Shown: positions 2-41,796 of the stretch, one piece after another | How the letters are laid out: each line of letters starts with the position of its first letter | Numbering within the stretch: position 1 is the first letter of the stretch | Origin: Selenomonadaceae bacterium | GTDB taxonomy: Bacteria > Bacillota > Negativicutes > Selenomonadales > Selenomonadaceae | DNA length: 64,000 bases | Reading direction: 5' to 3' | NCBI GenBank assembly: GCA_022773425.1 | Contig: JALFBM010000014.1 | Coordinates: 1 to 64,000 of the forward strand | Notes under the pieces: model-generated | Told to the model about the DNA's origin: nothing | Databases searched by the model: none | Seen by the model: only the letters and a program-made list of their open reading frames with translations | Position numbers and translations under genes: made by a program

Positions 2-175
2 TCGCCTGAGTCACGTTCGCATATCTTGATCAATGTACCGATGGCTAGTCGGGAACAGGCCGTTGCCTTGCCCAGCAAGGAGCACGGTCAACGCCTTTGG
101 AGTGTACAAGAACTTGTGAGTAGTCTCAGGCTTGCCTGGACAAAAGCATACACGATGAAAAAGGAATTTTTCTAG
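2..175 (+). CDS. C-terminal fragment of an unidentified CDS (possibly transposase-like)
   Basis: Open frame from the window start reading SPESRSHILINVPMASREQAVALPSKEHGQRLWSVQELVSSLRLAWTKAYTMKKEFF* with stop TAG at 173-175; family not identifiable from this piece. Confidence 0.4.
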   Translation, partial: SPESRSHILINVPMASREQAVALPSKEHGQRLWSVQELVSSLRLAWTKAYTMKKEFF

Positions 176-18086: not shown

Positions 18087-19097
18087 TTAGTCGTTCTTGG
18101 CGTTATCCTGGAGCCATGGCATCATAGCGCGAAGTTCCTTGCCGACCTTCTCGATCGGGTGCTCTGCGTGGAGCTGACGCTGCATCAGGAAGTTCACGCG
18201 GCCGGCCGAGCGGTTCTCGAGCAGCCAGTTGCGGGCGAAGGTGCCATCCTGGATTTCCTTGAGGATTTTCTTCATCTCTTTCTTCGTATCCTCGGTGATG
18301 ATGCGTGGGCCGGCCATATAGTCGCCGTATTCCGCCGTATCGGAAATCGACTTGCGCATCTTCGTGAAGCCGCCTTCGTAGCAGAGGTCGACGATGAGCT
18401 TCATCTCATGGAAGCATTCGAAGTATGCCATCTCCGGCGGGTAACCAGCTTCGACGAGGACTTCAAAGCCCGTCTGCATGAGCTGACAGACACCGCCGCA
18501 GAGGACGGCCTGCTCACCGAAGAGGTCTTCCTCCGTCTCATCGCGGAACGTCGTCTGCAGAACGCCGGAACGCGTTGCGCCGAGGCCTCTGGAATACGCG
18601 AGGGCGAGGTCGAAGCATTTGCCGGAAGCGTCCTGATAGACGGCGAAGACGGCAGGAACGCCGGATCCCTCCGTGAACGTGCGGCGGACGAGGTGGCCCG
18701 GGCCTTTCGGAGCGACCATGAACACATCGACGTCCTTCGGCGGTACGATCTGCTTGAAATGGATGTTGAAGCCATGTGCAAAGGCGAGCGCGCTGCCCGG
18801 TTTCAGGTTCGGGCCGATTTCCGTCTTGTAGACATCCGCCTGCTTTTCGTCCGGGATCAGGACCATCGTGATGTCCGCCTGCTTGACGGCTTCCGCCGTC
18901 GGCAGAACGGTCAGGCCATGTTCTTCCGCGACTTTCTTGGACTTGGAGCCCTCGTAGAGGCCGACAACGACATCCACGCCGCTGTCCTTGAGGCATAACG
19001 CATGTGCATGTCCCTGGCTGCCATAGCCGATAACCGCAACTTTTTTCCCTTTCATAACATCCCAGTTTGCGTCCTGATCGTAATACACCTTTGCCAT
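18087..19097 (-). CDS. ilvC: ketol-acid reductoisomerase
   Basis: [47 protein letters not shown]; start MAKV with RBS AAAGGAGAG. Confidence 0.97.
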
Positions 19098-19184
19098 AAA
19101 ACATCTCTCCTTTTCCATGACTCCATTGCGGATCGTGTTTCTCTAAGCCGCTCTCATCGGCTTTTGGTTGAAAAACTTGGATAC

Positions 19185-19296: not shown

Positions 19297-20637
19297 TTAT
19301 TCGCCGCCGAGTACAGGTTCTGCGTCCTCCTCTGCAGTCTCCCTGGATTTTTTCGTGGAGAAGCCGAAGCCGTACTGGATGCTGAGCACGAGAAGCCCTG
19401 CCGCGAACATCGCGGCGCCCATGATATAGTAGCCGAGATCGAAGGAACCGGTGTTCGTCTTGATCCAGCCCATCATATACGGGCCGACGAGGCCGCCGAG
19501 GTTGCCGCAGCAGTTGATCAGTGCAGTGGAGGCCGCGGCTGCGGAACCCGTCAGAAAGGTCGTCGGGATCGTCCACCATACGCCCATCGAGGCGTGGATG
19601 CCGATCGCGGACAGGCAGATCAATACGAGCGCGATGGTCACATTCGGCGCGTGCGGCGAAAGGGCGAGACCGACTGCACCGACAAAGAGCGCGCCGGCGA
19701 CATGCCAGACTTTATCTCCCGTGCGGGAGGACGAGCGGCCGATGAAGATCTGCACGAGCAGGGCGGCCATCATCGGGATCGCGATAGCACCGCCGAGCAG
19801 CTGCGTCGAAAGGCCGGAAAGCTGCTTGAGGACAGTCGGCATCCAGAAATAAAAGCCCCAGAACCCGACGACCCAAAGGAAATAAATCACGCAGAGGCGC
19901 AGGACCTTCGGGTCGCGGAACGCCTTGAGCACCGAGTACTGCTTTTTCTGGAGCATCGCGGCGCGCTCTTTTTCGTATTCTTCCGTTAGATACTGTTTTT
20001 CTGCGTCCGTCAGCCAGGATGCCTCTGCCGGGCTGTCCTTTACACCAAAGAAGAACAGGACGGCGAACAGCAGCGCCGGCGCGGCCTCGAGGATGAAGAG
20101 TTCCTGCCAGCCGGCAAGCCCGAAGAGCGAGGTCGAGAGCAGGAAGCCCGAGAGCGGTGCGCCGATGATGTTTGCGAGCAGCAGGCTCGTGAGCATGTAG
20201 CTCGTCGCGCGCGCCCGTTCTTTGCCCATGAACCAGCGCGGGAAGAGCACCGAGTAGATGACCGGGTAGAGGCTGGCCTCCGCGGCACCGAGCAGGAACC
20301 GGCAGAGATAGAACTCAACCTGCGTGTGCATGAACGCCATGCAGCAGCTGACGAGCCCCCAGGTGAACATGATGCGCGCAATCCACTTCGACGCGGAGAA
20401 CCGCGCCGCAATCAGCGAGCCCGGAATCTCGAGCAGCAGATAGCCGAAGAAGAAAATGCTCGCGCCGGCACCGTAGATTTCCGGCGTCAGCCAGCCGAGA
20501 TCCTGCTTCATCGTCAATGCCGCGTACGAAATGTTCACGCGGTCGAGGCAGGCGATGATCGAGACGAGAAATACCGGAAGGACAATCCGGAGATCTCGCT
20601 TTCGCGTCAGTAGCTTCATGTCAACGGATGAGTTCAT
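19297..20637 (-). CDS. MFS transporter, ACS-like family
   Basis: 12-TM MFS; SIIACLDRVNISYAALTMKQDLGW, FFFGYLLLEIPGSLIAARF, RFLLGAAEASLYPVI. Confidence 0.88.
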   Translation of the reverse strand: MNSSVDMKLLTRKRDLRIVLPVFLVSIIACLDRVNISYAALTMKQDLGWLTPEIYGAGASIFFFGYLLLEIPGSLIAARFSASKWIARIMFTWGLVSCCMAFMHTQVEFYLCRFLLGAAEASLYPVIYSVLFPRWFMGKERARATSYMLTSLLLANIIGAPLSGFLLSTSLFGLAGWQELFILEAAPALLFAVLFFFGVKDSPAEASWLTDAEKQYLTEEYEKERAAMLQKKQYSVLKAFRDPKVLRLCVIYFLWVVGFWGFYFWMPTVLKQLSGLSTQLLGGAIAIPMMAALLVQIFIGRSSSRTGDKVWHVAGALFVGAVGLALSPHAPNVTIALVLICLSAIGIHASMGVWWTIPTTFLTGSAAAASTALINCCGNLGGLVGPYMMGWIKTNTGSFDLGYYIMGAAMFAAGLLVLSIQYGFGFSTKKSRETAEEDAEPVLGGE

Positions 20638-20678: not shown

Positions 20679-20926
20679 TAAAAAAACCCCGTCCCTCGAA
20701 GGGACGGAGGTTTATTTCCGCGTTACCACCCAATTTCCCGGCAAGGCCGGGCACTCACAACGTACCAACATACGTGTCTCCGATAACGTGGAGAATCCGT
20801 CTTGGCTTACCTCTTTCGTTCAGCCTCGCTCCTCAAGGAGGATTTTCGTCTCTGCCTCCGTCACCGCTTCTCAGCAAACCGCGGCTCTCTGTGTACTTCG
20901 TACAGAAATTACTCGTTCCTATCATC
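20679..20926 (-). ncRNA. T-box leader upstream of the MFS gene
   Basis: Minus strand AAATTGGGTGGTAACGCGG (T-box core at 20731-20718), Stem I-like AGAGAGCCGCGG...GCTGAGAAGCGG, GTAAGCC...CGTTAtcgg region, terminator ACCTCCGTCCCTTCGAGGGACGGGGTTTTTT at 20710-20679. Confidence 0.9.
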
Positions 20927-20979
20927 GGATGTTTACAATCTTGTTGAATTTTTTGTGTTTTTGAAATCTGTTTGTAAAT

Positions 20980-26985: not shown

Positions 26986-27014
26986 TTGACAATTTGCGCG
27001 GATTGCCCTATAAT
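26986..27014 (+). promoter_or_regulatory. perfect-consensus sigma-A promoter of the sulfur-carrier cluster
   Basis: TTGACA (26986-26991) - 17 bp - TATAAT (27009-27014). Confidence 0.85.
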
Positions 27015-27088
27015 GACGTTAATTACTTAGAAAACATATTGATATTATATGATTAGCCGTCCGGCCGTAGGTCATTCGACAAACGAAA

Positions 27089-27157
27089 GCCTGCGGAAAG
27101 CGTCGGAGAACAGGACAGGTATGCCTCGGTTCCCCCTTGCTTTCCGCAGGCCTTTTT
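27089..27157 (+). terminator. leader terminator/attenuator upstream of the thiS-like gene
   Basis: GCCTGCGGAAAGC (27089-27101) / GCTTTCCGCAGGC (27139-27151) followed by CTTTTT; 37-nt loop can fold internally. Confidence 0.7.
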
Positions 27158-27184
27158 GCAGGGGCGCGCGGAGGAGGAAGCGCA

Positions 27185-27394
27185 ATGAAACTGACGGTAA
27201 ATGGGGATCCCTTGGAAATTGAGAAGCCGATCACGGTGAAGGAATTGCTCGTCGTCGCGAAGGCCGAGCAGCCGGAATACGTGACGGTGGAACTCAATGG
27301 CGAGTTTGTCGACCATTCCGGTTTTGAGACGACGACGGTAAAGGACGGCGACGTCGTGGAGTTCCTGTACTTCATGGGAGGCGGTGCGAGATGA
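27185..27394 (+). CDS. ThiS/HcyS-like ubiquitin-fold sulfur carrier protein with C-terminal extension
   Basis: MKLTVNGDPLEIEKPITVKELLVVAKAEQPEYVTVELNGEFVDHSGFETTTVKDGDVVEFLYFMGGGAR*. Confidence 0.88.
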   Translation: MKLTVNGDPLEIEKPITVKELLVVAKAEQPEYVTVELNGEFVDHSGFETTTVKDGDVVEFLYFMGGGAR

Positions 27395-28209
27395 GCAGCC
27401 TGACGAATGAGCAGCTGGAACGGTATTCCCGCCACATCATCCTCCAGCAGGTCGGCGGTAAGGGCCAGGAGAAGATTCTCGGCAGCAAGGTGCTCGTCAT
27501 CGGCACGGGCGGGCTCGGCGCCCCGGCGGCGATGTACCTTGCCGCGGCGGGCGTCGGCACCATCGGACTCGTGGATTTCGACGTCGTGGATCTGTCGAAC
27601 CTCCAGCGCCAGATCATCCACCAGACGGCGGATGTCGGCAAGCCAAAGGTCGACTCGGGCCGCGAGACCATCGAGGCGATGAACCCGGACGTCGACGTGC
27701 ACACCTATCATGAGATGGTGACGTCGGCGAATATCCGCGACATCATCCGCGATCAGGACTACGATTTCATCATCGACGGCACGGACAATTTCCCGGCGAA
27801 ATTCCTGATCAACGATGCCTGTGTTTTTGAAAAGAAGCCGTTCGTGCATGCGGGCATCCTTCGCTTCTCCGGGCAGCTCATGACGTATGTGCCGGGCAAG
27901 GGGCCGTGCTACCGCTGCGTGTTCAAGACGATGCCGCCAAAGGACGCTGTGCCAACCTGCCGGCAGGCGGGCGTCCTCGGCGTGATGGGCGGTGTCATCG
28001 GCACGCTGCAGGCAACGGAGGCGCTCAAATACATCCTCGGCGTCGGGGAGCTGCTCACGGGGTATCTCCTGACCTATGACGCGCTGACGATGAAATTCCG
28101 CAAGGTCAAGATACCGCGGGATCCGCACTGCGCCATCTGCGGCGAGCATCCGACCATCACGGAACTCATCGACTACGAGCAGCCGGCCTGTGACCTGCGG
28201 AAGGCCTGA
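27391..28209 (+). CDS. HesA/MoeB/ThiF family E1-like adenylyltransferase
   Basis: YSRHIILQQVGGKGQEKILGSKVLVIGTGGLGAPAAMYLAAAGVGTIGLVDFDVVDLSNLQRQIIH; Zn Cys pairs CYRC/CAIC. Confidence 0.93.
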   Translation: MSSLTNEQLERYSRHIILQQVGGKGQEKILGSKVLVIGTGGLGAPAAMYLAAAGVGTIGLVDFDVVDLSNLQRQIIHQTADVGKPKVDSGRETIEAMNPDVDVHTYHEMVTSANIRDIIRDQDYDFIIDGTDNFPAKFLINDACVFEKKPFVHAGILRFSGQLMTYVPGKGPCYRCVFKTMPPKDAVPTCRQAGVLGVMGGVIGTLQATEALKYILGVGELLTGYLLTYDALTMKFRKVKIPRDPHCAICGEHPTITELIDYEQPACDLRKA

Positions 28210-28223
28210 GAGGAGGAACCGGC

Positions 28224-28637
28224 ATGATCGTAAAGCTGAAGCTGCAGGATTACCTTTCGCTGGTCCGTCACGCGCGCGCTCTCTCGCCAGTCGAGGACTG
28301 CGGCCTCCTTGGCGGCACCATCGAGGACGGCGTCAAGACCGTCGAGAAGGTATTTTACCTGACGAACGTGGACCACAGTGCGGAGCATTTTACGCTGGAC
28401 CCGAAGGAACAGTTCGCGGCGGTCAAGGAGCTGCGCGCCAAGGGCTGGCAGCTTCTCGGCAATTGGCACAGCCACCCCGCGAGCCCCTCACGTCCGAGCG
28501 AGGAGGATAAACGCCTGGCATTCGACAGCAAGGCGAGCTATTTTATCCTGTCGCTGAACGGCGGGGAGCCGGTACTGAACAGCTTCCACGTGGACCGGGA
28601 CAAGACCGTCACGAAAGAGGATCTGCGCATCCGGTAA
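28224..28637 (+). CDS. JAMM/MPN+ domain metallopeptidase (M67-like)
   Basis: PVEDCGLLGG and JAMM motif HSHPASPSRPSEED (HxH-x7-S-x2-D). Confidence 0.92.
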   Translation: MIVKLKLQDYLSLVRHARALSPVEDCGLLGGTIEDGVKTVEKVFYLTNVDHSAEHFTLDPKEQFAAVKELRAKGWQLLGNWHSHPASPSRPSEEDKRLAFDSKASYFILSLNGGEPVLNSFHVDRDKTVTKEDLRIR

Positions 28638-28670: not shown

Positions 28671-29531
28671 ATGGCAGTAGACTACAAGGAACTCAAGAAG
28701 GGCGGACTCATGCGGCAGAAACAGAAGGACTGTTTCTCCATGCGCCTGAAGTCGGTCGGTGGGCATTTTACGGCGAAGCAGCTGGATGTCATTCAGCAGG
28801 TCGCGGAAAAATACGGCAAAGGCTATGTGCATCTGACGAGCCGTCAGGGCATTGAGATCCCCTATATCCGCTTGCAGGATATCGAGGAGGTCAAAGGCGC
28901 TTTGAAGCAGGGCGGCGTCGAGATCGGCGTCTGCGGCCCGCGCGTGCGCACGATCACGGCGTGCCAGGGGGCGGCAACCTGCCCGTCCGGTCTCATCGAT
29001 ACGGTGAAGATGGCCAACGAATTCGACCGCCGCTATGGCGGCAAAGAGCTCCCGCATAAGTTCAAGTTCGGGTTCACGGGCTGTCACAACAACTGCCTGA
29101 AGGCGGAGGAGAACGACTTCGGCGTAAAGGGCGGCGTCATGCCGAAATGGGATGCGGCGTCCTGTACGTATTGCGGCGTCTGCGAAGCCGTTTGTCCGGA
29201 AAAGGCCATCAAGGTCGATCGGGACGGACAGAGCCTCGATTTTGACGCGGATGCCTGCGTGTACTGCGGCAAATGCATCAAGAGCTGCCCGACGGATTCG
29301 TGGACGGGCGAGAATGGCTTCGTGATTTCGTTTGGCGGACTCTATGGCAACCGCATTGCGGTCGGCCGTCATTTCCTGCCGATCGTCTTTGATGAGGAGA
29401 AGGTCTATGAGATCGTCGATGTCACGCTCCAATTCTTTGAGGACAACGCGAAGCCGAGCGAGCGTTTCGCGAACTGCCTCGATCGCGTGGGCTGGGATAA
29501 ATTTCAGAAGAAAGTGGAGGAAGTCTTATGA
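28671..29531 (+). CDS. sulfite/nitrite reductase-like siroheme [4Fe-4S] protein with two ferredoxin-type clusters
   Basis: ACQGAATCPSG and GCHNNCLKAEEND (C-x5-C...C-x3-C), CTYCGVCEAVCP, CVYCGKCIKSCP. Confidence 0.88.
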   Translation: MAVDYKELKKGGLMRQKQKDCFSMRLKSVGGHFTAKQLDVIQQVAEKYGKGYVHLTSRQGIEIPYIRLQDIEEVKGALKQGGVEIGVCGPRVRTITACQGAATCPSGLIDTVKMANEFDRRYGGKELPHKFKFGFTGCHNNCLKAEENDFGVKGGVMPKWDAASCTYCGVCEAVCPEKAIKVDRDGQSLDFDADACVYCGKCIKSCPTDSWTGENGFVISFGGLYGNRIAVGRHFLPIVFDEEKVYEIVDVTLQFFEDNAKPSERFANCLDRVGWDKFQKKVEEVL

Positions 29532-29776
29532 GCCGGAAGCAAGCAGATGCGGCGATTGACATCACGGATGTCGTCTGTCCGATTACCTTTGTCAAGGTAA
29601 AGGTCGCACTCGAGGAGCTCGAGGACGGGCAGACGCTCGCCGTGCACCTGAACGACGGCGAGCCGATCCAGAATGTGCCGCGCAGCCTGAAAGACGAGGG
29701 GCACAAGGTGCTGTCCGTGGACAAGAACGAGGATGGCACGTTTTCCCTGCTCGTAGAAAAAGGCGGCCTGGCGTGA
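29528..29776 (+). CDS. TusA/SirA-family sulfurtransferase
   Basis: DITDVVCPITFVKVKVALEELEDGQTLAVHLNDGEPIQNVPRSLKDEGHKVLSV. Confidence 0.85.
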   Translation: MSRKQADAAIDITDVVCPITFVKVKVALEELEDGQTLAVHLNDGEPIQNVPRSLKDEGHKVLSVDKNEDGTFSLLVEKGGLA

Positions 29777-41644: not shown

Positions 41645-41677
41645 AAAAGAGCTATAATGAAAAGCAAAAGTATATTG

Positions 41678-41780
41678 TGTGGGGAGCTCGTCGGAGTCGT
41701 TTGTTTTCCAAACGGGCTGAGAGGGCAGTGGGACTGCCGACCCAGAACCTGATTTGGATAATGCCAACGTAGGGAGTACA
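41678..41780 (+). ncRNA. TPP riboswitch (THI element)
   Basis: GGGGAGCTC...CGGGCTGAGAGGGCAG...GACCCAGAACCTGATTTGGATAATGCCAACGTAGGGA. Confidence 0.97.
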
Positions 41781-41796
41781 GAGATTCTGTAAAGCG

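Follow-up and report, generated by a model that had tools for sequence, protein, structure and literature searches.

The leader of a sulfur-carrier operon in a member of the Selenomonadaceae is likely a cis-acting terminator/antiterminator switch belonging to a sulfur-limitation regulon; the response to sulfur, its direction and the factor involved are inferred, and there are no expression data. The leader lies in a window of 64,000 nucleotides (contig JALFBM010000014.1, forward strand), the whole stretch of DNA analysed here, taken from a Selenomonadaceae assembly of 84 contigs that is 82% complete. The operon behind it, on the plus strand like the leader itself, begins with a gene for a thiS-like sulfur carrier (27185..27394; PF02597), followed by genes for a ThiF/MoeB-like activating enzyme (27391..28209; PF00899), a JAMM (Prok-JAB) peptidase (28224..28637; PF14464), a sulfite/nitrite-reductase-like Fe-S protein (28671..29531; PF01077, PF03460) and a TusA-like sulfurtransferase (29528..29776; PF01206). 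The encoded MoeB shares 97% identity with its counterpart in Selenomonas bovis DSM 23594.

Direct reading places a sigma-70 promoter, TTGACA-17-TATAAT, at 26986..27014, with TTGACA at 26986-26991, TATAAT at 27009-27014 and a spacer of 17; this 12/12 match is unique within a 9-kb scan, and the transcription start is inferred to lie near 27021. An intrinsic terminator follows (27089..27157; -37.5 kcal/mol), in which GCCTGCGGAAAGC (27089-27101) and GCTTTCCGCAGGC (27139-27151) form a 13-bp stem around a 37-nt loop (27102-27138), and the TTTTT run at 27153-27157 is separated by 27 nt from the ATG at 27185. An initial annotation, made from sequence alone, had described this arrangement as an undescribed attenuator with regulated readthrough. 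Its perfect promoter held, as did its 13-bp GC-rich stem, 37-nt loop and U-run about 27 nt before the start codon, and its statement that T-box, SAM-I and TPP elements are absent, since the leader matches none of these in Rfam. The claim that the 37-nt loop is itself foldable also held for the window sequence; however, the loops of relatives differ in both length and sequence (3-99 nt), and the loop is therefore not the functional core. The core is instead an antiterminator hairpin at 27065-27096, just 5' of the part that had been stressed, which that annotation missed together with an operator-like DNA palindrome at 27032-27051. Regulated readthrough is supported by the finding that this conserved hairpin and the terminator exclude one another, and its regulation by sulfur is inferred. 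The terminator stem-loop dominates the predicted fold of the window leader, and the folding energy of the entire leader is mildly unusual (z -1.95); the main evidence for the leader is conservation among its homologues, not folding energy.

The hairpin consists of two short helices separated by an asymmetric internal loop. The 5' strand of the outer helix P1, CCGUAGGU (27065..27072), pairs with the 3' strand GCCUGCGG (27089..27096), a pairing supported by covariation and by folding. The internal loop presents C and A on its 5' side (27073..27074) and a single A on its 3' side (27088..27088), and both adenines are invariant (46/46). The apical hairpin P2, UUCG-ACAAA-CGAA (27075..27087), has 99.5% of its cells paired and shows compensatory variants among relatives (UUCG/CGAA, UUAG/CUAA, UCUG/CAGA and UUUG/CAAA). 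To assess the structure, we used an alignment of 46 cores that had not been fitted to a model. Paired cells amount to 86.8% in this alignment compared to 80.4 +/- 0.8 in shuffles, the covariation score is 0.368 compared to 0.240, and none of 500 shuffles reaches the observed value for either pairing or covariation; registers slid against one another pair at most 55.5% of cells. As the shuffle control ignores relatedness, we place more weight on the slid control and on the covariation in P2. RNAalifold predicts the same fold unprompted and adds a U.G closing pair, and the invariant or nearly invariant alignment columns are U20.G37, A22, A36 and U23-A35. The outer pairs of P1 are weak in AT-rich members, with 79.5% of P1 cells paired. 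P1 and P2 covary as a structure separate from the terminator. Some thiS leaders also show a small CGG-n-CCG hairpin further upstream, which might act as an anti-antiterminator; it was dropped as it is not general.

Homologous leaders were reached via the upstream regions of ThiS orthologues, as direct BLASTN with the leader returned only matches to operator pieces or to the AT-rich stretch after the promoter. In the thiS leaders of genera g1, g11, g16 and g25, the pattern CCGUAGGUCAUUCG-n-CGAAAGCCUnnGG is followed by a terminator. A covariance model was built from 10 thiS leaders and run on 189 genomes of the window's family. The whole element in the window matches at 27055..27101 (57.7 bits, E 5.7e-16 with model R1, whose seed includes the window sequence; 39.7 bits with model R2, for which it is the sole match in the window). 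Independent sulfur loci other than thiS were matched by the 10-leader model at E values of 1e-14 to 1e-5: the element precedes sulfate-binding protein/cysTWA (sulfate ABC) operons, DUF2292/OscA (yezD) genes, O-acetylhomoserine sulfhydrylase genes, NMT1/SsuA-like sulfonate transporters, cystine-type and methionine (MetN-like) transporter genes, and NifB-like genes or nitrogenase-like clusters. Representative controlled proteins were confirmed with Pfam and NCBIfam, and the others were assigned by eye from near-identical translations. A conserved structure is thus present before thiS in several genera, and many other sulfur genes are preceded by it as well; the proposal of an attenuator, which according to the initial annotation would have been refuted by a lack of conserved structure in homologues, stands. 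That sulfur supply is what the element responds to is inferred from the identity of the controlled genes.

Cultured carriers include S. ruminantium, S. ruminis, S. bovis, S. montiformis, M. multacida and M. jalaludinii. The thiS leaders of genus g6 are diverged representatives of the element, matched at E 5e-5 and 7e-4 when a small set was searched. A second model detected the element in other Negativicutes families too, with matches that include the leader of thiS in G290 (f10), a cystine-type ABC operon in G282 (f6), a sulfonate ABC operon in G277 (f11) and metN in genus g13. In a phylum-wide sample of 398 genomes, five carried matches at E<=1e-3, all of them in the window's own family, and no match at that threshold lay outside it. 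Some candidates were set aside: three loci (L190, L196 and L199) are probably false matches, lying inside reading frames with no overlapping terminator, and a fourth of similar architecture (L016) has no model support and was not counted. In G287, two near-identical copies of element and terminator (L187, L188) have no clear gene behind them.

The placement of the element relative to the terminator is as regular as its structure. An intrinsic terminator overlaps the element in 58/60 cases, with the start of its 5' arm no more than a few bases from the P1 3' strand, and a terminator score of at least 15 is reached at 52/60 elements compared to 1/435 control positions in the same loci. Because the 3' strand of the hairpin is at the same time the 5' arm of the terminator, the two structures are mutually exclusive; the CCGUAGGU/GCCUGCGG pairing with its inner UUCG/CGAA is assigned as the antiterminator because the terminator stem begins with its 3' strand. 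In ViennaRNA, the nascent window RNA ending at 27135 is predicted to adopt the antiterminator, and the complete leader the terminator. The two exceptions are yezD leaders (L134 and L153) that have the element and lack the terminator; folding gave no clear support for a translational version at these loci. An alternative reading is that of an ordinary unregulated intrinsic terminator, belonging to upstream panD or to a small RNA, with the conserved bases being terminator sequence only. The terminator is indeed strong and lies downstream of a promoter, but the conserved hairpin is upstream of it and covaries as a separate structure, the hairpin is found again in front of unrelated sulfur operons across many genera, and the window terminator lies 3' of the operon's own promoter. 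We consider this explanation very improbable.

The switch leaves little room for additional sensing parts. The distance from the -10 box to the start of the conserved GGU is only about 28-31 nt in many leaders, which leaves about 20-24 nt of RNA 5' of the hairpin; this makes it unlikely that a leader peptide is encoded or that a separate aptamer lies upstream, and the sensed factor or signal probably acts on the hairpin itself. Ribosome-mediated attenuation via a short leader peptide, for example one with cysteine codons, has precedent in the cysteine-codon attenuators of the uORFC-8-2 motif (PMC8632094), and the window leader contains an ATG at 27049. However, apart from the limited RNA before the hairpin, the spacing from ATGATT to CCGUAGG is 21, 23 or 24 nt in relatives and does not keep a frame. 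No conserved start codon, ribosome-binding site or Cys/Met codons were seen in the leaders, and we regard this mechanism as highly unlikely.

For the terminator/antiterminator switch that we prefer, the following sequence of events can be envisaged. RNA polymerase would start near 27021 and make the P1-P2 antiterminator hairpin first. Left unstabilised, the hairpin would give way to the longer terminator, for which the P1 3' strand serves as 5' arm, and transcription would stop at 27153-27157. When sulfur is limiting, a factor acting in trans, most likely an RNA-binding protein recognising the UUCG hairpin together with the NA/A internal loop closed by U.G, would hold the antiterminator and permit readthrough into thiS-moeB-JAMM-sulfite reductase-tusA. 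The sulfur signal, the direction of the response and the protein nature of the factor are all inferred.

As the conserved core is short and simple, we favour an unidentified RNA-binding protein about twice as strongly as a metabolite riboswitch. In the latter, which remains possible, the hairpin would be a very small aptamer (~30 nt) binding a metabolite that reports sulfur status, with cysteine, O-acetylserine, O-acetylhomoserine and sulfide as candidate ligands that would block or favour the terminator; metabolite binding is again inferred. The invariant unpaired A22 and A36 together with the U.G closing pair, a regulon of transport and biosynthesis genes, and the absence of any known antiterminator protein family common to all element genomes speak for an aptamer, and small aptamers are known: that of the HMP-PP riboswitch lies mostly within its terminator stem (PMC6478431). 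Against it are the few conserved unpaired positions, the presence of only two short helices, and the lack of conservation in the terminator loop, a possible site of further contacts. If the riboswitch reading were correct, the element would represent a new riboswitch class, at about 30 nt one of the smallest known, which reads the sulfur status of the cell directly and governs much of the sulfur assimilation of Negativicutes.

If the factor is instead the protein that we favour, the known families of antiterminator offer themselves as candidates. In the leaders bound by BglG, SacY and LicT (RAT), the 5' arm of an intrinsic terminator overlaps a short hairpin interrupted by an asymmetric internal loop, and the element works like these without being a member. 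It differs from RAT in sequence, in having a single internal loop and in preceding sulfur rather than sugar genes, and CAT_RBD is found in 5/20 element genomes and absent from 15/20, including that of the window (82% complete). The targets of ANTAR proteins in eut, nas and ami leaders are similar in that the 3' part of a mini-hairpin forms a terminator when unbound, and ANTAR genes occur in 17/20 element genomes. However, ANTAR target RNAs consist of two hairpins whose hexaloops carry A1 and G4 (PMC3369931), whereas the element has one conserved hairpin with a loop of 4-5 nt that starts with A and has no conserved G, and ANTAR is absent from the element carriers G116 (100% complete), G111 and G142. 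Despite the shared logic of a small hairpin overlapping a terminator, action of either known family on the element is thus unlikely.

We also considered DUF2292/OscA as the RNA-binding factor, since it co-occurs with the element (42/45 element genomes compared to 41/144 others), and its gene often carries the element itself. The candidate was rejected, as such co-occurrence is expected of any sulfur gene and the predicted fold is uninformative, with no informative PDB match. The protein (L121 418-762 and relatives) contains two repeats, predicted as alpha-beta-beta twice (pLDDT 85), and ends in a conserved RFTGLDGEGI tail. Several element-terminators are located directly 3' of the DUF2292/OscA gene, inside the operon.

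A second layer of control is suggested on the DNA level by the palindrome AAACATAT-N7-ATATG (27032..27051), a probable site for an Rrf2-family (CymR-like) regulator for which there are no binding data. The palindrome is conserved by the -10 box in most thiS orthologues and genera, and a related pattern was found in 14/41 genomes, with 0 matches for the reversed control. Related sites precede cysK, OAH sulfhydrylase, a Cys/Met-metabolism enzyme, metN, a cystine ABC operon and an Rrf2 gene, much as expected of a CymR (Rrf2) regulon. In the last case (L066; PF02082, E 6e-21), which rests on one genome, the AAACATAT palindrome lies directly upstream of the regulator gene, and its product may be an autoregulated CymR-like sulfur regulator of Negativicutes. 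The palindromes before sulfur genes and before an Rrf2 regulator gene make a CymR-like repressor likely, its identity being inferred. Situated just after the -10 box in the window, the site might serve to block or road-block polymerase, and a bound CymR-like protein would add repression of initiation to the control at the terminator. CymR acts on DNA, however, and leaves the RNA switch unexplained; many genes of genus g13 have the switch and no operator, and some thiS operons conversely have the operator and no RNA element (e.g., L003, L004, L006 and L009). As each occurs without the other, we suggest that operator and RNA serve the same physiological signal. One Mitsuokella multacida locus (G013:C4; L033 1501-1690) combines the operator palindrome with a different terminator leader before a glutathionyl-hydroquinone-reductase-like (GST-like) gene; its model matches are weak and confined to the other strand, and it was not counted as an element.

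While a terminator/antiterminator device is known in kind, the RNA family and its sulfur regulon likely are new. In Rfam 15, no family reached its gathering score for the window leader or the sampled leader loci, and at E<=10 the window, L121 and L189 matched only miRNAs and other chance hairpins, all below the gathering score. We found no description of the element in the open-access literature searched, nor in RNA-motif-discovery papers that mention Negativicutes; prior description in subscription papers or preprints outside the search is not excluded. The HMP-PP riboswitch ('thiS motif') is likewise compact, terminator-coupled and located upstream of thiS genes. However, its aptamer is embedded in a terminator with a conserved loop and it controls thiamin genes (PMC6478431), whereas the conserved part of the element lies 5' of a terminator with a variable loop and its genes serve sulfate, sulfonate, cysteine and methionine rather than the thiamin thiazole. 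T-box, SAM-I and TPP leaders share with the element only the terminator coupling and an association with amino-acid, sulfur or thiamin genes. As the sensing part is small and no known antiterminator family fits, identification of the factor would bring to light a tiny riboswitch or else an RNA-binding antiterminator of a new kind. In Selenomonas, Mitsuokella and their relatives, an abundant group in rumen and gut, the element would define an RNA-based sulfur regulon that brings together the uptake of sulfate and sulfonate, the supply of cysteine and methionine, nitrogenase-like clusters and a sulfite pathway with a carrier protein.

NifB-like, NifH-like and nitrogenase-like proteins are encoded beside sulfonate or cystine transporters and cysK at seven loci (L129, L138, L140, L193, L198, L304 and L305), several of which carry the element or the operator; we take these clusters to be possibly methylthio-alkane reductases. 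The window itself contains three further structured RNAs. A TPP riboswitch (41670-41793, plus strand) precedes thiazole-synthase-like and ThiH-like genes, and as the thiamin genes carry this riboswitch of their own, they form an operon distinct from the thiS operon analysed here. A T-box leader (RF00230, 120 bits; 20697-20934, minus strand) lies before an MFS transporter gene (19297-20637) followed by an ilvC-like gene (18087-19118), and a RAGATH-18 RNA (RF03064, 74 bits; 94-166, plus strand) is found near the left end.
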